Position numbers and translations under genes: made by a program. From Kangiella sp. (GTDB lineage Bacteria; Pseudomonadota; Gammaproteobacteria; Enterobacterales; Kangiellaceae), in the NCBI RefSeq assembly GCF_014762745.1, contig NZ_JABURJ010000110.1, positions 1 to 64,000 on the forward strand: DNA of 64,000 bases. The letters are read 5' to 3'. Below are positions 39,366-54,713 of the stretch, one piece after another (within the stretch, counting starts at the first letter, position 1; each line of letters opens with the position of its first letter). Below the pieces are notes generated by a model. That model saw only the letters and a list, made by a program, of their open reading frames with translations. It was not told where the DNA came from and searched no databases.

Positions 39366-41192
39366 TTAAGAAATGAGCTGCTCAAATTCTTTAACCAAAC
39401 TATCTACTACAACAATCTGGTTACGACCTTTGCTTTTAGCGCTATACATGGCTTTATCAGCGTCGGCAATCAAATCCATCAAGTCGTAACCGGACAGCTC
39501 GGTGCTGGTCACACCAAAACTCGCTGATATATCAAAACGATAGCCAGTTTCTGTGGTATCAATACGGGAAACTGCTTGACGACAGCTTTCCGCCAGCTGC
39601 TGTGCTTTTTCAAGGTTGCAGGCCGGCAGGAAAATGGCAAACTCTTCACCACCCAGACGCCCAGCCAAGTCATTCTGGCGACAACTGGCTTTAACCACTT
39701 CCGCCGTTTGCTGCAACACCCAGTCACCCACTAAATGACCATACTTATCATTGATCGATTTAAAATAATCCATGTCGAACAGAATAAAGCCGACATCCTG
39801 CTTTTCTTGCTCGCTCCGCTGTAAAATCGCCTTAGCTGTTTCATAGAAATGATGACGAGAACTTAAACCCGTTAGCTGGTCGGTTTGCGATTGTTTGCGT
39901 AAACGAATTTGATGACGCTTGATACGATAGGTCCAAAAAGCTAAGGTTCCCAGAAGCACCAAAGCCAAAGCCAATACCAGACGGTTATTAACCGCTTCTT
40001 TTTTTGCTAAATCCTGCTCAAGCTGGAGCAATAAGTTCTGTTGATTAAGCTGCTCTATTTTCTGCTGCTTACTCTCGGTCTCATGCTCTACTAACTGATA
40101 AGCCAACTGCTTCGATGATTCATCATTTTTGTATCGGTTGATTTTAACCAAATACTCTTCTAGAAACTCTAAAGCCTGCTCCAAGTTACCTCGCTCTTTT
40201 AGTAGCTGAGAATTTAAATAATAGGCCTCCAACAACCAGGTCGTTACTGTTTCTCTATTATTCTTTTCAGCAGTCTCAATTGCTTTTGTTGCATAAAGCT
40301 GAGCTGAAACGCTGTCATCAACACCGCTTAAACTCAAAGCGTATAAGGTGTAGTACCCTGTTGTTAAATAACTGTATCCCAATTTCTCAACTGCTGGCAG
40401 TTGTCGCTCAATATCCAATTTAGCCTGCTCAAATTGTCTGCTTCTTACACTATTGGCCAGCAAGTAAAATTTAGCAGACAAAGCATAAACCGGTTCTTTC
40501 TCAAAGCAGTCACTATAAGACTTATTAATATAGGCAGTTTGCTCAGAACGGATTTTAGTTAGCTCATACCATGTTTGAGCCTTAACAGCAGCGAGCAAAC
40601 ACCTCTCTTTAAGATTAGATAAGCTACTGTGTTCATTTAACTTGCCTAATGTTTCTTCAGCAAGCTCATATTGCCCCACTTCGTTATAAACAATCGCAGC
40701 AACCTGATAGATATAATTACGAATCGAATCTTCGGCACCACCGGCTTCTGTTAATACATTTTTTATCAACTCAAGAGCACCAACATAATCTTTATTCAAA
40801 ACCTGCAGGTTTGCTAAAGCTAATTTAGTTCTAATGACTAAGGGCTTATTAACCTGACTGGCGATAACTTTCTGATAGTGGGCAATAGACTGTTCCGAAT
40901 TGCCTTTTAAGGCTTCAGCATAACCTAATAAATAATCTCTTAAGGCCTTATTCTCTATATCGGGAAGCTCTAACTCTGAGATATAGTTGACTTGCTGTAA
41001 GAACTGCTGGGGATCTGTTGTTCTAAGATGGTTTGCTATTTTTAGCTCTTCGACATAAGTAATTTCGGTAGCCTGCAACAAGCCACCGAAAATACCAATT
41101 ACTATTATTGAAAGTTTGTAAATCGATCGAAGGAAGCTATGCGACCCTGATTTCTTCTTCCCTGGAATCATCTTCTGAAGCATCCTCGTCAT
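39366..41192 (-). CDS. TPR-containing membrane diguanylate cyclase
   Basis: 608 aa. A signal or anchor (LSIIVIGIFGGLLQATE) is followed by about 350 residues of TPR-like helices placed in the periplasm, a coiled coil, a membrane helix (NRLVLALALVLLGTLAFW) and a cytoplasmic GGDEF domain with intact GGEEF, so it should make cyclic di-GMP. The start lies inside the borosin precursor gene, overlapping it by 56 nt in another frame. In-frame ATGs at 41183 and 41171 are alternative starts, still inside the precursor gene. Translation is thus likely coupled to the RiPP genes. Confidence 0.9.
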   Translation of the reverse strand: MTRMLQKMIPGKKKSGSHSFLRSIYKLSIIVIGIFGGLLQATEITYVEELKIANHLRTTDPQQFLQQVNYISELELPDIENKALRDYLLGYAEALKGNSEQSIAHYQKVIASQVNKPLVIRTKLALANLQVLNKDYVGALELIKNVLTEAGGAEDSIRNYIYQVAAIVYNEVGQYELAEETLGKLNEHSSLSNLKERCLLAAVKAQTWYELTKIRSEQTAYINKSYSDCFEKEPVYALSAKFYLLANSVRSRQFEQAKLDIERQLPAVEKLGYSYLTTGYYTLYALSLSGVDDSVSAQLYATKAIETAEKNNRETVTTWLLEAYYLNSQLLKERGNLEQALEFLEEYLVKINRYKNDESSKQLAYQLVEHETESKQQKIEQLNQQNLLLQLEQDLAKKEAVNNRLVLALALVLLGTLAFWTYRIKRHQIRLRKQSQTDQLTGLSSRHHFYETAKAILQRSEQEKQDVGFILFDMDYFKSINDKYGHLVGDWVLQQTAEVVKASCRQNDLAGRLGGEEFAIFLPACNLEKAQQLAESCRQAVSRIDTTETGYRFDISASFGVTSTELSGYDLMDLIADADKAMYSAKSKGRNQIVVVDSLVKEFEQLIS

Positions 41193-41385
41193 CTTCCGCA
41201 GGAGCCAAAATTACTGACACATTGGTATTAGCCCCTAATAAACTTTCTAATTTAGCGATATTTTTTTCTTTTATCGCTTCTGCAAGCTCTTCTTCTAAGC
41301 CTAATGCCTTTAACTTAGATACTGATAATGATTGCTCTGAAGTAAGGTTAGCAATAGTTTCAAGAAGTTGTAAATTTTGGCTCAT
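41137..41385 (-). CDS. Split-borosin RiPP precursor peptide
   Basis: 82 aa, SonA-like. Residues about 6-52 are helical (KLKALGLEEELAEAIKEKN, then IAKLESLLGAN) and match the borosin-binding domain that docks on the methyltransferase; the LGL/GL-x-E turn and the KLESL helix align by eye with Shewanella SonA. The presumed core is NVSVILAPAEDD, whose VSVIL corresponds to the SonA stretch that is backbone N-methylated. A strongly acidic tail (EDDEDASEDDSREEE) follows, which SonA lacks. AAAGGAG stands 6 nt before the ATG. It lies 34 nt after the methyltransferase gene. Confidence 0.85.
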   Translation of the reverse strand: MSQNLQLLETIANLTSEQSLSVSKLKALGLEEELAEAIKEKNIAKLESLLGANTNVSVILAPAEDDEDASEDDSREEEIRVA

Positions 41386-41419
41386 AGTAATCTCCTTTAA
41401 GTGTTGATAAGACCATTAG

Positions 41420-42160
41420 TTACGATTTTTTCCTTAACGGTGGTATCACAAGCGTTGTTTCCAGACTGGTCTCAACATTTGCTAATTGTTGTAATTGTAT
41501 TTTTTCTATTCTTGATTCTTTTAATAATAGTGTTGATGACTCATAAAGAATGACTTCGTGGTCTTCAGGATATATTGCATTCAGTTTCTTTTTGAGTAAT
41601 CCAAGCTTTTCTTCTGTTGTCTCAAACTCTGTGAGTTCCTGATCCCCTGCAATCCCTATTTGCCAAAGCACCAGATAGGCGCTCGGCTCAATATTTTTGT
41701 TATGAACCATATACTGGGTCGTTTCGTAATGCTGACAGCCGAACCTGCCTGGGTCAATAGCTAAATCAGCATATAGACAATCTTCTGCCGAAATTCCTGG
41801 CTCCATATGAGCCTCAAAGCCTTCCCTCTTCGCTGTTTCGATTACTCGATGAGGAGCAAGTGCAAACACCCCAGGGTGACCATAGAATGCTGCACACACA
41901 TTCTTGCCTGCTCTTACTTCATGCATTATCGCGGCAATCATTTCTTTATAGGTTTCAAGCCGCGACTTTCCCGACTGATAATATTGACCTAGGTCGTGAG
42001 TATTCGGATTAAGCTCTTTTATCCAGCTTCCCATCAAGCTACTTGCAACGGCTATGAACACGATATCAGCCTGCTCGATTTGCTGTTTTGATATGGGGGT
42101 CATGTGCACCATGAGCTTGATTCCAGTTCCTACACAGACCAGTCGACCCTTCTTGTTCAA
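41420..42160 (-). CDS. Split-borosin peptide alpha-N-methyltransferase (SonM-like)
   Basis: 246 aa of tetrapyrrole-methylase fold, but with the SonM pattern and not that of a cobalamin enzyme: LVCVGTGIKL at the start, YGHPGVFALAPHRVI, MEPGISAEDCLYADLAIDPG and LWQIGIAGD. Residues Y60/Y61, R67, Y71 (SRLETYKEM) and Y93 fall where borosin methyltransferases keep catalytic Tyr and Arg. It uses SAM to methylate backbone amides of the precursor's core. No cobalamin genes are nearby. It overlaps the GNAT gene by 4 nt. Confidence 0.88.
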   Translation of the reverse strand: MNKKGRLVCVGTGIKLMVHMTPISKQQIEQADIVFIAVASSLMGSWIKELNPNTHDLGQYYQSGKSRLETYKEMIAAIMHEVRAGKNVCAAFYGHPGVFALAPHRVIETAKREGFEAHMEPGISAEDCLYADLAIDPGRFGCQHYETTQYMVHNKNIEPSAYLVLWQIGIAGDQELTEFETTEEKLGLLKKKLNAIYPEDHEVILYESSTLLLKESRIEKIQLQQLANVETSLETTLVIPPLRKKS

Positions 42161-42687
42161 AACTTATCCCCAGTTCTTTCTTCGTACACCCAATAGCCAT
42201 AATCTGGATCGTTCTTATAGTTATAAAAACCAAGGCCAATGACCATACTTATACTGATTAAATTATCATGCTTTATTCGTCCGTATAACCTGCTTATCCC
42301 TATCTTTACTAAAATCTTATTAACCAATCCCTCAATGACTTCTTTAGCGATACCCTGATTAACAGAATCTTTGCTCAATATCACGCCTAATTCCCAGCCG
42401 TCCTCAAACATTCTTCGCTGGGATATTCCAATCAGACCAACCTTTGAATTGTCACTCTTTCTTCTTATAGCCCATAAAAAACTTCGGGGTTGGGGCTGGC
42501 TTAAGCTAAACAATTCCTTATTAAAACGCTCAATAGCTCCGCGTTGATTTAAAGGCTTCTCAATGCACCGCATTGTTATTGGATCCGTCAGCAGGGAAAC
42601 ATAAAATGACTCATCAGAGTCAGATACAATCGTCACGTAAAAATGACTGGTACTAAATGCCATATTATTGGTTCTTTCATCAGTCAT
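42157..42687 (-). CDS. GNAT-family acetyltransferase in the borosin operon
   Basis: 176 aa RimJ/RimL-like GNAT fold (RSFLWAIRRKSDNSKVGLIG, WELGVILSKDSVNQGIAKEV with the acetyl-CoA loop, ending YGYWVYEE). The stop overlaps the methyltransferase start as ATGA, so the two are tightly coupled. It could acetylate the peptide's N-terminus or a side chain, or confer self-protection; neither is shown. Tracked start is GTG 42693; ATG 42687 chosen. Confidence 0.82.
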   Translation of the reverse strand: MTDERTNNMAFSTSHFYVTIVSDSDESFYVSLLTDPITMRCIEKPLNQRGAIERFNKELFSLSQPQPRSFLWAIRRKSDNSKVGLIGISQRRMFEDGWELGVILSKDSVNQGIAKEVIEGLVNKILVKIGISRLYGRIKHDNLISISMVIGLGFYNYKNDPDYGYWVYEERTGDKF

Positions 42688-42794
42688 ATGCACAACAAAT
42701 TATAACTCTGTACCCCCAAACCCTTCCGATAATACCCATCCAACAAAAAAATAACCACCAGTTTATATTGTCCGATACGCTTAAAAATGGTTAC

Positions 42795-49911: not shown

Positions 49912-52020
49912 CTATTTCTTAATCTCATGCAACATACCGCCTTCCAGCACTAAAACCCTATCGGCCATAGCGATGGTTTCTGGGCGATGTGCAACAATAA
50001 TTCGTGTGATATTTAAACTCTTCACAGTGTCATTAACTACTCTCTCAAGTCCTACATCAAGATGAGAAGTTGCTTCATCGAGAAATAGCACTTTTGGTTC
50101 TTTATATAATGCACGTGCTAATAGCAGTCTTTGCTTTTGACCACCTGAGAGACTGCTTCCCATGTCCCCTATCAATGTGTTGTATCCCATTGGCATCGCC
50201 ATGATATCGTGGTGTATTGCCGCCATTTTGGCACATTCTTCAATTCTTGCCTGGTCATGAGTTGTATCAAAAAAACAAATGTTGTCAGCAATGCTACCTG
50301 ATAACAGTTGGTCATCCTGCATGACTGTTCCAATCATTTTTCGGTAATTCCTTAATCCTATTTTTCGTATATCAAGGCCATCAAGTATTACTGCTCCCTG
50401 GGTCGGCTCTAATAAACCTAACAAGATTTTAATTAGTGTCGTTTTACCCGCTCCCGATGCTCCGACAATTGCGACAGATGAACCCGGCGTTATCCTGTAA
50501 TTTATACCCTTAAGGATCTCGGGTTCGTTTGAAGAATACTTAAAGCGTACATTTCTGACTTCCACTTCTCCCTTGCTATCTATTACATTACTTGAACCCT
50601 CAGTATGTTTTTCCTGCTCAGCCAAAACAATATCACCTAACCTTTCAAGGTGAAGCGAAAGCATCTTAAACTGAATAAGCTTATCAACTAGTGCCGAAGC
50701 CTTGCCGGTAAACTGTGATTTGTAAGACATAAATGCATACAACATACCCACCGTCAGGAGACTATCTATTACTTGAGTTGCCGCAAGATAAATAACAATA
50801 ACGTTCTCAATCCCAAATATCAGTCCATTTAGAAAGTTGTATGTGATATTAAGCTTACCAACCTTGATCCCTGCATTCATTTCATCGGCATAATAATTTT
50901 GCCAAACAGCCTGTCTTTGAACTTCATTTCCAAACAATTTGACGCTTTGTACCCCTCGAACTGTTTCCATGAAGTTAGAGCTTTGCTTGGCATTTGCAAC
51001 TATTTGCTCCTCGTTTAGTTGCCTGTAGGGTCTATACAAGGCCAACCTTAGTAAGGTATATAACAGTACCGCACCAATTACAATAAAGCCCAATAATGTA
51101 CTGTACACAAACATCATTATTAGAAGACCTACAGCCATAATTCCATCAACCAATGCCGATATTAATCCCGTGGTTAATAAATTCCTTATACTTGCTAAAG
51201 ACCCAAACCTTGAAACAACATCACCAATATGTCTTTTCTCAAAGTAGTCCATTGGCAGTCTAAGAAGGTGTCTGAATAAATTAGCGGCCATCTGTATATT
51301 CAGCTGAGTACTCATATACAAAATAATAATACTACGTAACGCTGTAACAGCTACCTTAATCAGCATTAATAAGCCAAAGCCAATAGCAAGAACTACCAGC
51401 AAATCAAGATCTTGGCTGACGATTACATCATCAACTACAAGTTGCATGTAAAACGGACTGGCTATAGCAAAAGTTTGCAGTAATAACGACAAGATAAAGA
51501 TCTGAACTAGAACACGCTTTATCCCAGTAATACTGCTCCAAAAGTCAGATAGTTTGGTCTTTCGCTTTATCTCTTGCGGCTTAAAGTCTGGCGTAGGTGT
51601 TAACTCCAGTGCCACCCCAGTAAAGTGCTTCGAAACCTCGTTAAGTTTTAATGTTCTTAGTCCAACTGCAGGATCATGAATTGTTATCTTATCCCGTTTA
51701 ATACTTTTGAGTACAACAAAGTGATTGAGATCCCAATGAAGTACGCAAGGTGTTTTTAAATGATTTAACTCTTCTAATTCCAGCCTCAAAGGGCGAGCTG
51801 ACATTTCTAAGTTATCACCGAGCTTAATGAGATCAGCGAGAGTGGCACCTTTAGACGATATTGAGAATTTCCGGCGCAGAGAGTTTAGATCAACTTTATG
51901 GCCATGATAGTTAGCTATCATGGCTAAACAGGCCAGTCCACACTCTGAAGCTTCAGTTTGGATTATTAAAGGTAACGTCTTTCTCCAGCTGTACTGGAGT
52001 AGTTTAGAAGGATTCTCCAT
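49912..52020 (-). CDS. Peptidase C39-containing ABC exporter
   Basis: 702-aa bacteriocin/microcin exporter that cuts double-glycine leaders and pumps the core out. C39 peptidase at 10-135 with Cys27 (QTEASECGLAC), His100 (LNHFVVL) and Asp116 (IHDPAVG); six membrane helices at about 165-440; ATPase with Walker A GASGAGKTT, signature SLSGGQKQR and Walker B VLFLDEATSHLD. All catalytic residues look intact. The adaptor gene is 5 nt upstream. Confidence 0.94.
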   Translation of the reverse strand: MENPSKLLQYSWRKTLPLIIQTEASECGLACLAMIANYHGHKVDLNSLRRKFSISSKGATLADLIKLGDNLEMSARPLRLELEELNHLKTPCVLHWDLNHFVVLKSIKRDKITIHDPAVGLRTLKLNEVSKHFTGVALELTPTPDFKPQEIKRKTKLSDFWSSITGIKRVLVQIFILSLLLQTFAIASPFYMQLVVDDVIVSQDLDLLVVLAIGFGLLMLIKVAVTALRSIIILYMSTQLNIQMAANLFRHLLRLPMDYFEKRHIGDVVSRFGSLASIRNLLTTGLISALVDGIMAVGLLIMMFVYSTLLGFIVIGAVLLYTLLRLALYRPYRQLNEEQIVANAKQSSNFMETVRGVQSVKLFGNEVQRQAVWQNYYADEMNAGIKVGKLNITYNFLNGLIFGIENVIVIYLAATQVIDSLLTVGMLYAFMSYKSQFTGKASALVDKLIQFKMLSLHLERLGDIVLAEQEKHTEGSSNVIDSKGEVEVRNVRFKYSSNEPEILKGINYRITPGSSVAIVGASGAGKTTLIKILLGLLEPTQGAVILDGLDIRKIGLRNYRKMIGTVMQDDQLLSGSIADNICFFDTTHDQARIEECAKMAAIHHDIMAMPMGYNTLIGDMGSSLSGGQKQRLLLARALYKEPKVLFLDEATSHLDVGLERVVNDTVKSLNITRIIVAHRPETIAMADRVLVLEGGMLHEIKK

Positions 52021-52025
52021 TATTA

Positions 52026-53276
52026 TTATATTTTTCCACGCAAACTATAAATAGGTTCGAGCAACCATTCAACTAAACTTCTCTCACCCAATATAATATC
52101 GGCGTTAACCGACATGCCAGATTGCAATATCATTTTCTTATCATATGCCGTTACATACTGGGATTTTAACTCAACATTCACCTTATAAACAGGCTCTTGC
52201 AACTGTATTAAGTTCGATGCTTCGTTTGGATTAATTACCGAAGACGCGATATTGCTCACCGTTCCTTCGTACAGCCCATATCGTTGATAAGGGAAGGCAT
52301 CATACCTTAACAATACTTTTTGTCCTTCATTAACAAAACCAATTGCACGGGAGGGAAGGTATAACTCAGCATACAGTACAGTATCTTCAGGTATTATAGT
52401 TAACAGTGGCTTATTAGGACTAACAGTTTGTCCTGCATTTACCTGCATAGCAGTCACACGACCAGAGACAGGAGCCTTGACAATATAAGAGCTTGCTCCT
52501 TTGAGCTCGATAATCCTTTCTTTTAAACGAGCTAACGTACTCTCTAACTCATTCTGACGTTCTTTGGCTTTAACTGGTAATTGAGATAGTTGCTTCTCTG
52601 CTTGGCTAAGTTCCAACTCTTTATTGAGAATTACTCTTTTGAGTGATTCCAAATTAGCTTTATGAGTTAAGTAAGTGCTATGCCTAGAGCTAACCTCAGC
52701 CTCTCTAACTAACCCCCTTTTTCTAAAATCAATATACTTGCTCCATTCATTTTTATTTACCTTCACAAGCTCTCTTTGCGTTTTAATTTGTACAGAAAGC
52801 TTCGACAACTCATCAGATAAGTTCGCTATCTGTTGGTGCAACTGCTCTGTTTCAGATGCATTAATTTCCTCTTGGTTGAAAGCACGATCAAGAAGGCTAT
52901 CAATCTGAGTTTCAACTTCCTTAATCAATTGCTCGTTAAGTGCATGACCTCCCGCGTAATACCTCCCTGTGGCTACCTGCAAAATAGCATCGCCTTTTTT
53001 AACATAGTCACCTTCTATTACTAGCTTTTTGTCCACCGTGCCTAGATAAGGAGCATATACTTTCAGCGCTCCCTTATTTGGCAGTATATAACCATTAACA
53101 ATCTGCTTTTTGGAATAAGTGCCTTGTATAAGAAACAATACCATCGACAGCACTATAGCTAAAAAAAATAACACAAACGCTAAACTTAAAGGCTGATTTT
53201 TTACAACTACACTTCCCAACATATTGGAAGAACTGTTGTCTACTGCTTCTTGTCGATATAACTTTACATCTTCCAT
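52026..53276 (-). CDS. HlyD-family periplasmic adaptor
   Basis: 416 aa with one membrane helix (PLSLAFVLFFLAIVLSMVLFL), a lipoyl half-motif (VKKGDAILQVATG), a long coiled-coil hairpin (about 125-265) and a beta-barrel part (SSYIVKAPVSGRVTAMQVNAG). It links the ABC exporter to an outer-membrane TolC channel, which is not encoded here. ATG has no good Shine-Dalgarno. Confidence 0.92.
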   Translation of the reverse strand: MEDVKLYRQEAVDNSSSNMLGSVVVKNQPLSLAFVLFFLAIVLSMVLFLIQGTYSKKQIVNGYILPNKGALKVYAPYLGTVDKKLVIEGDYVKKGDAILQVATGRYYAGGHALNEQLIKEVETQIDSLLDRAFNQEEINASETEQLHQQIANLSDELSKLSVQIKTQRELVKVNKNEWSKYIDFRKRGLVREAEVSSRHSTYLTHKANLESLKRVILNKELELSQAEKQLSQLPVKAKERQNELESTLARLKERIIELKGASSYIVKAPVSGRVTAMQVNAGQTVSPNKPLLTIIPEDTVLYAELYLPSRAIGFVNEGQKVLLRYDAFPYQRYGLYEGTVSNIASSVINPNEASNLIQLQEPVYKVNVELKSQYVTAYDKKMILQSGMSVNADIILGERSLVEWLLEPIYSLRGKI

Positions 53277-53405
53277 ATTTAATATTTAAAGGACTCGATA
53301 ACTATCTTACTAAGTTCCCAGTTGCTAATATTTATTTTTTAGTATTGCTTTACATGAGCTATAAAGACTTTAACTTCAATTAAACTATCAAATATAGTGC
53401 CCCTA

Positions 53406-53582
53406 TCATTTATACGACTGACATTTACCATTAATTTTCATATATTCTAATAATTTATGTAGAAAATATTTCAAACTCGATCCCATGCCCAATCTTGTTT
53501 TATCATCTTTGCTACCCAGAACTACTTCTAAACCTTCATATGCCTTATAACTTTCTAATAGATTTCTTTGAAATGGGACGGT
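53406..53582 (-). pseudogene. Possible gene remnant upstream of the adaptor gene
   Basis: An open frame of 58 codons with no usable start before its last 26 codons. It reads like real protein (ESYKAYEGLEVVLGSKDD, then LKYFLHKLLEYMK), and a neighbouring frame continues upstream (PQTEKLDRPISKKS), which would fit a frameshifted remnant. No family recognised. The rest of the 518-nt gap at 53277-53794 shows no gene. Confidence 0.25.
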
Positions 53583-53730
53583 CTAACTTCTCTGTTTGAG
53601 GAAAACTTATCAAGAACTACATAAATGTCCTATTTTAAATTTAGGTTTAATTAAATTAACCATGCCACATTACTACAATGTATTTATTTAATTAATTACT
53701 AATAATCACGTGTATCTAGCAATTTTCATT

Positions 53731-53754
53731 AATAAAGGGCGCCCACATGGGCGC
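53731..53754 (-). terminator. Terminator after the precursor gene group
   Basis: Seven-pair stem GCGCCCA/TGGGCGC with a 2-nt loop, then CCTTTATT on the minus strand. It separates the peptide genes from the exporter genes. Confidence 0.55.
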
Positions 53755-53794
53755 AGGATATACTGTCACAGAACTGACTAAATCAGTTAATACT

Positions 53795-54103
53795 TTAAGT
53801 ATCTCTGACAACATCAATTGATACCTTAACAGTATTGTCTTTTCTGCCATCTATTGCTTTACTGCACTCAACTTGGTATTTATTGTTAGAGTAGTTTATT
53901 TTAACTTTTACATTTGACTTTGTATAAAAAACTCCGTTTGAGATTTCTGTGCTTTCAGATGAAAATCTTGTTGCACTATTTATAATATCCTGAGCGATAG
54001 CTTTGCAATCCCTTTGCTCGAAACTATCCTCTTTAGAAAAAGCCTGCTTTGAAAACAATAGTAGAAGCACAAGTGCAAGTACTAATTTCCACTTACTATG
54101 CAT
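53795..54103 (-). CDS. Sec-exported two-cysteine protein in the microcin-like locus
   Basis: 102 aa with a Sec signal (LVLALVLLLLFSKQAFS). The mature part has two cysteines (RDCKAIAQDI and YQVECSKA) and a beta-rich middle (NVKVKINYSNNKYQVEC). AAAGGAG precedes the ATG and overlaps the stop of the upstream precursor gene. It may be a periplasmic immunity protein or a third product; the C-to-C layout loosely recalls the two GG peptides. Confidence 0.65.
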   Translation of the reverse strand: MHSKWKLVLALVLLLLFSKQAFSKEDSFEQRDCKAIAQDIINSATRFSSESTEISNGVFYTKSNVKVKINYSNNKYQVECSKAIDGRKDNTVKVSIDVVRDT

Positions 54104-54117
54104 ATTTACAAACTCCT

Positions 54118-54360
54118 TTACTCACCTTGCGAAACATCTACCGTCCGCTCATTACAATCAACAGTTAGAGAATCCCCTGAATTTAATTCCCAGCCTAAAA
54201 TATTAACTGACTTTGTGACCTCTATACTAAAACTATCAACTGACCCGCTATCGCATACATCACTAACAAACTGTTGTCTTTCTGAAGCAGTACTATCTGT
54301 AAGCCCGCTTTCATTGCCACCACTTATTATATTTAAACTATCTAAAGCTAATTCCTTCAT
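54118..54360 (-). CDS. Double-glycine-leader peptide precursor 2
   Basis: 80 aa. Leader MKELALDSLNIISGG fits the class II microcin type and would be cut after GG, leaving a 65-aa acidic core. The core shares with precursor 1 the motif CDSGSVDS and a second cysteine in VDCNE, 32 residues apart, so a disulfide is likely. Exported by the C39 transporter nearby (inferred). Antibacterial action is not proven. Confidence 0.82.
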   Translation of the reverse strand: MKELALDSLNIISGGNESGLTDSTASERQQFVSDVCDSGSVDSFSIEVTKSVNILGWELNSGDSLTVDCNERTVDVSQGE

Positions 54361-54380
54361 AACAACACCTAAAATCTAAT

Positions 54381-54409
54381 CTTATATAAAAGAGCTCATT
54401 ACTGAGCCC
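54381..54409 (-). terminator. Attenuator-like terminator between the two precursor genes
   Basis: Seven-pair stem GGGCTCA/TGAGCTC (one G-U), 4-nt loop, then TTTTAT on the minus strand. It would lower expression of precursor 2 and the Sec protein relative to precursor 1. Confidence 0.6.
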
Positions 54410-54443
54410 TTTACAATTGCGAATAAAAAAATTGAACGTATAA

Positions 54444-54713
54444 TTAACCTTCTGAGGTTTCTCCGCTTGAGCTTCCCTCTCCCGAAGGTTGATTAGAACC
54501 AGTATCAGTGTTACAGGTTACTGATACCTTACCTGATAATGAACCAGAAAATACAGACCCAAAAGTAACCTCGCCCTCAAGCATCATGCTAGCTGAATCC
54601 ACATTACCAGAGTCACAAATTGCTTCTGGCAAAGTGTCAACATTGCTAGATGATGAGCCACCATCATTTCCACCAGCAACAATTGTAATTTCTTCTACTG
54701 TTAAATTTCTCAT
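54444..54713 (-). CDS. Double-glycine-leader peptide precursor 1
   Basis: 89 aa. Leader MRNLTVEEITIVAGG, then a 74-aa core rich in Ser and Gly. CDSGNVDS and VTCNTD hold the two cysteines, 33 residues apart, as in precursor 2. The end (QPSGEGSSSGETSEG) is Ser/Gly-rich, loosely like siderophore microcins, but no siderophore-attachment genes are present. GGAG stands 6-7 nt before the ATG. Confidence 0.82.
   Translation of the reverse strand: MRNLTVEEITIVAGGNDGGSSSSNVDTLPEAICDSGNVDSASMMLEGEVTFGSVFSGSLSGKVSVTCNTDTGSNQPSGEGSSSGETSEG

Follow-up and report, generated by a model that had tools for sequence, protein, structure and literature searches.

What would a peptide-methylating enzyme and its small precursor be doing beside a membrane sensor? 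The question is raised by a gene cluster of a Kangiella sp. that resembles the SonM/SonA borosin pair, in which methyltransferase and precursor are separate proteins. The window, i.e., the whole stretch of DNA that was analysed, comprises 64,000 nucleotides of contig NZ_JABURJ010000110.1.

The methyltransferase and its genes

All four genes of the cluster lie on the minus strand and follow one another, in the direction of transcription, as GNAT, methyltransferase, precursor, and GGDEF gene (Table 1). The TTG start of the methyltransferase overlaps the GNAT stop codon (an overlap of 4 nt), and the ORF coordinates agree with the preliminary description that enzyme and precursor are separate genes 34 nt apart, the precursor lying downstream. 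Read from its first ATG, the sensor ORF shares 56 nt with the end of the precursor gene; a start at a later ATG is possible. Because of the bases shared by the GNAT and methyltransferase genes, the motifs upstream of the methyltransferase TTG (GGGGA) and of the precursor ATG (AAAGGAG), and the overlap of the GGDEF gene with the precursor end, the four genes likely form an operon. The gene partners do differ from those of SonMA, as had been claimed, but the GNAT gene and the TPR-GGDEF sensor had been left unnamed; the range first noted (41137–42687) also takes in most of the GNAT gene, which went unmentioned.

Table 1 Features of the split-borosin locus in the window
Feature	Coordinates	Strand	Remarks
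GNAT (Acetyltransf_3) N-acetyltransferase gene	42157..42693	-	Pfam E 5e-16
Split-borosin (SonM-type) peptide backbone N-methyltransferase	41420..42160	-	246 aa, TTG start; SonM match, catalytic set, tree
Borosin precursor peptide	41137..41385	-	82 aa, ATG; profile link to SonA
Borosin-binding domain (leader), residues 1-51	41233..41385	-	hhalign to SonA-type profile
Predicted core, residues 52-62 (ANTNVSVILAP)	41200..41232	-	position relative to SonA core
Acidic tail, residues 63-82 (AEDDEDASEDDSREEEIRVA)	41140..41199	-	P-A-E-D/E-D/E motif common to subfamily
TPR-GGDEF sensor protein	39366..41192	-	608 aa from first ATG; Pfam GGDEF E 6e-45; AlphaFold2; hydropathy

In a PDB search, the window enzyme matched SonM over almost its full length (residues 5–244; 235.7 bits, E = 4.8e-69), OphMA-type borosin enzymes with ~162 bits (E about 1e-46), and precorrin-2 methyltransferase with 24 bits (E = 2e-4). 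In the window enzyme, Tyr61, Arg67, Tyr71, and Tyr93 stand at the aligned positions of Tyr58, Arg67, Tyr71, and Tyr93 of SonM. All 31 borosin methyltransferases in the alignment have this Tyr/Arg set, which had already been read from the enzyme, and the 8 tetrapyrrole methylases or other TP_methylase proteins all lack it. Likewise, the proposed comparison with cobalamin and siroheme enzymes in a maximum-likelihood tree placed the window enzyme inside the borosin clade (97% SH-aLRT support for the branch), with the siroheme/cobalamin-type and RsmI-type methylases falling outside. The enzyme is not fused to clasp or core, and the genome contains three TP_methylase matches, namely one RsmI-like protein and two borosin enzymes. 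That the enzyme is instead a tetrapyrrole (cobalamin or siroheme) methyltransferase beside an unrelated small ORF, as its Pfam family, TP_methylase, might invite one to think, was rejected as having a negligible chance of being right, given the bit scores, the separate and well-supported clades, the absence of the catalytic residues from all eight tetrapyrrole-type relatives, and the borosin-binding domain of the adjoining precursor. Based on the homology to SonM and SonA, the catalytic residues, and the position in the borosin clade, the identification of the pair as a split borosin is well supported, and judged by its anatomy, the pair belongs to type IV.

Borosin methyltransferases, at least one per genome, were found in 20 of 20 Kangiella genomes searched, in 28 of 99 genomes of the order, and in 16 of 399 genomes of the phylum, one of these 16 being a very weak match. 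Among named relatives, K. aquimarina DSM 16071 comes closest, its methyltransferase being 90% identical. K. aquimarina and relatives (L031:1013-2675, L057, L058) carry a second cassette beside the window-type unit, consisting of a GNAT gene, a methyltransferase, and a precursor of 67 aa whose core contains two KLLLL repeats; the window does not have this cassette. The window genome itself has a second split-borosin locus (L002/L076) beside gcvP. Comparing the two loci, both have a BBD precursor and TPR proteins downstream, and their methyltransferases are 48% identical; however, the second locus has a SonA-like precursor without an acidic tail, lacks a GNAT gene, and encodes two TPR proteins (359 and 368 aa) that carry no output domain.

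The precursor, its predicted core, and the acidic tail

As a single query, the precursor gave no usable match in Pfam, NCBIfam, or PDB. With hhalign, its family profile, by contrast with the single sequence, could be aligned to the profile of the SonA type across 68 columns (probability 97.6, E = 4.5e-12), bearing out the binding domain that had been proposed for it, and reached the SonA chains in PDB with E = 0.0016–0.004; the SonA-type family profile itself matches SonA in PDB with E = 1.7e-26. Orthologues of the precursor are present in 4 Kangiella relatives, and no signal peptide was found on the window precursor. The AlphaFold2 model of the precursor has four helices in the leader, at low confidence (pLDDT 58), and since its best Foldseek match, SonA, had an E value of 1.4, we set the model aside as evidence. 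The TOD6 repeat protein, the top PDB match of the acidic-tail profile, owes its rank to many weak repeat matches and was set aside as well.

The hydrophobic NVSVIL stretch occupies residues 55–60, directly C-terminal to the binding domain, and the acidic tail follows at residues 63–82, so that both were found where the preliminary description had put them, the former at the place of the SonA core. In SonA, the binding domain (residues 1–53) and a linker (54–61) precede the core (62–71), which is methylated at Leu63 and Ile65 (PMC8429565). An ungapped alignment of the binding domains places these two residues at Ile59 and Ala61 of the window precursor, a register that we infer from the binding domains. 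Because the methylated positions of SonA align there, the modified block would be better given as V56–A61 than as VSVIL exactly, and backbone methylation is predicted to fall within it. The core is new in that it differs from that of SonA but not in being unique to this locus: related precursors of several genera have a motif in common, in which P-A-E-D/E-D/E and an acidic tail come after a hydrophobic stretch. Among five close relatives, codons 52–64 include eight codons with only synonymous variation and one with an amino-acid change, and the leader includes 16 and 13, respectively; the numbers for the core are small, with few sites to compare, and residues 65–82 overlap the sensor ORF.

Of 22 acidic-tail loci, 20 have a GNAT gene no more than 700 bp from the methyltransferase. 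Within this distance, a GNAT gene is found in 0 of 12 Dyella-type loci and in nine of 61 others, some of which adjoin acidic-tail loci. Simple counting, with kinship ignored, gives this association a Fisher p of about 1e-11. On the tree, there are 4–5 independent contrasts, a number with which a sign test cannot reach 0.05, and the association therefore does not become significant there.

The TPR sensor and its linkage to borosin pairs

The sensor of the window begins with a hydrophobic segment (about residues 20–40), continues with a TPR solenoid (about 41–333) and a second hydrophobic segment (about 400–422), and ends with a GGDEF domain (436–592) that contains RxxD and GGEEF motifs. The AlphaFold2 model (mean pLDDT 92.5) consists of a TPR solenoid, a long helix, and a GGDEF domain; the assignment of the solenoid rests on this model and on relatives of the protein, the Pfam TPR match being below the curated cut-off. 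From the positions of the two hydrophobic segments, the TPR part is predicted to be periplasmic and the GGDEF domain cytoplasmic. In addition, two cysteines are invariant in the TPR alignment and would fit a periplasmic disulfide.

In a survey of 91 borosin loci, a TPR protein of the sensor family was found close to the methyltransferase in 88, nearly always on the same strand, and two of the three loci without one lie at contig ends or on short contigs. In the control, only 1 of 274 ORFs of at least 250 aa and more than 2.5 kb away from the methyltransferase matched the sensor profile. Split-borosin pairs thus adjoin a membrane sensor almost always, across a dozen or more genera. The surveyed loci are all related by descent, some were counted twice, and the sensor profile was trained on sensors from them; owing to the kinship and the duplicates, 88 of 91 is a measure of constancy and not of independence. 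A held-out check covered eight loci from genomes outside profile building, of which seven were split, each with a sensor (7/7), and the eighth was a fused 1174-aa ORF. This ORF (L176:3840-7364) contains a distant borosin-type methyltransferase region (35% identity) and is possibly a fused borosin.

A second TPR profile was run against 18 genomes, and by manual count, 31 of its 37 strong matches lie at borosin loci. Of the six matches away from borosin methyltransferases, three are TPR-GGDEF proteins of a different conserved neighbourhood. The other three (L148, L149, and L150) are TPR proteins that lie beside gcvP in Kangiella genomes and have no output domain, and no methyltransferase was found there. 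In the window genome, all three strong TPR matches are at its two borosin loci despite the presence of 32 GGDEF matches; with 14 to 64 matches in each of the surveyed genomes, GGDEF genes are common, whereas the TPR part is uncommon.

The output of the sensor varies. Of 59 sensors, 41 end in GGDEF output and 10 in HisKA plus HATPase output, the rest being without an output domain and mostly about 355 aa long; receiver domains are present in 4 of the 59. On the tree, the output domain changed in at least three events, a count that leaves out four sensors whose output domain went unrecognised by pattern. The units of methyltransferase, precursor, and sensor occur in three gene orders with the same partners kept, and the tree requires seven changes of order, with some rows possibly misassigned in tandem arrays. 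The sensor thus remains linked to enzyme and precursor even where gene order or output domain has changed. Tandem copies were seen of more than one component: two to four TPR proteins of ~355 aa follow the methyltransferase in L069-L072 and L083, and three precursors lie between methyltransferase and sensor in Lysobacter profundi (L035:4846-5682).

Proposed function and comparison with known systems

Since borosin pairs adjoin a sensor so constantly, the peptide is suggested to act as a signal, and signalling to the TPR sensor would be the simplest reading of the linkage from which it is drawn. For the window, we put the probability at roughly 55% that the methylated peptide of this type IV split borosin signals to the co-encoded TPR sensor and so changes cyclase output. 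As a type IV pair, enzyme and precursor would be expected to assemble into a dimer of heterodimers. The methyltransferase would bind the precursor via its helical leader and iteratively methylate backbone amides of the hydrophobic core (V56–A61) from N to C, as SonM does, and acetylation of the peptide may fall to the GNAT enzyme. Either as such or after processing, the peptide would then bind the periplasmic TPR domain, either directly or through a partner, and this binding would change the output of the diguanylate cyclase across the membrane. Against this reading, no conserved exporter or protease gene was found in the methyltransferase–precursor–sensor unit of the surveyed loci, the precursor lacks a signal peptide, and six strong TPR matches lie elsewhere than at borosin methyltransferases; transport is the main difficulty. 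Membrane permeability is said to gain from backbone N-methylation (PMC8429565), and one might speculate that this helps a cut peptide cross the membrane. The C39-type transporter cluster found 8 kb away has double-glycine peptides of its own and was rejected as a candidate exporter. This cluster (window 49912–54713, minus strand) contains genes for a C39-peptidase ABC transporter and an HlyD-type protein, together with two small ORFs whose products have double-glycine leaders (MKELALDSLNIISGG and MRNLTVEEITIVAGG), and looks like a separate bacteriocin-like export cluster.

Regulator genes often adjoin biosynthetic genes, and the sensor could accordingly belong to an ordinary split-borosin natural product, regulating genes or sensing the envelope without binding the peptide. 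SonMA-type loci have indeed been described as RiPP pathways (PMC8429565). We nonetheless regard this explanation as unlikely, if worth keeping in view: exporter, protease, and immunity genes are not conserved in the unit, the core-tail motif has been kept from genus to genus instead of diversifying, the TPR sensor is far more constant than the usual biosynthetic regulator, and diguanylate cyclases are no transcription factors. A unit without protease or exporter would also suit an intact methylated precursor that is never cut and acts inside the cell, e.g., as a docking or regulatory subunit with the acidic tail as an interaction motif, and the subfamily does conserve such a tail behind the core. 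However, a cytoplasmic precursor and the sensor's TPR domain would, by prediction, lie on opposite sides of the membrane, which makes an intracellular role improbable.

Peptide signalling to the sensor may extend beyond the window. Tentatively, and with the odds somewhat against so broad a statement, the split borosins of Gamma- and Betaproteobacteria could be N-methylated signal peptides with TPR sensors of their own and exchanged outputs, those of the acidic-tail branch being acetylated by GNAT. Should such peptides indeed signal, bacterial signalling would come to include backbone N-methylation, which is known mainly from natural products.

In the literature searched, with some central borosin papers outside the search, borosins were never joined with a diguanylate cyclase or tetratricopeptide, and no function was stated for bacterial split borosins. 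A figure legend already lists a GGDEF-containing domain among the parts of borosin gene clusters (PMC11395268); GGDEF as a neighbour of borosin loci is thus not new. Compared by description and not by sequence, RcbB of Vibrio vulnificus resembles the window sensor in joining TPR and GGDEF, its TPR domain repressing its cyclase (PMC12282931), and it offers a precedent for the control of a GGDEF domain by a TPR domain. However, its partner is a TPR protein, RcbA, and not a modified peptide, and the abstract of that work mentions no borosin genes. The OphMA-type fused borosins of fungi have a homologous methyltransferase domain, but their core is fused to the enzyme, whereas the core of the window is on a separate protein. 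Also among the closest systems is SonM/SonA of Shewanella oneidensis (PMC8429565), which shares with the window the separate methyltransferase and precursor genes, the SonM-type Tyr/Arg set, and a helical borosin-binding leader followed by a hydrophobic core. In contrast to SonM/SonA, the window has a different core sequence with an acidic tail behind it, a GNAT gene that overlaps the methyltransferase start, and an enzyme of 246 aa rather than the 263 aa of SonM.
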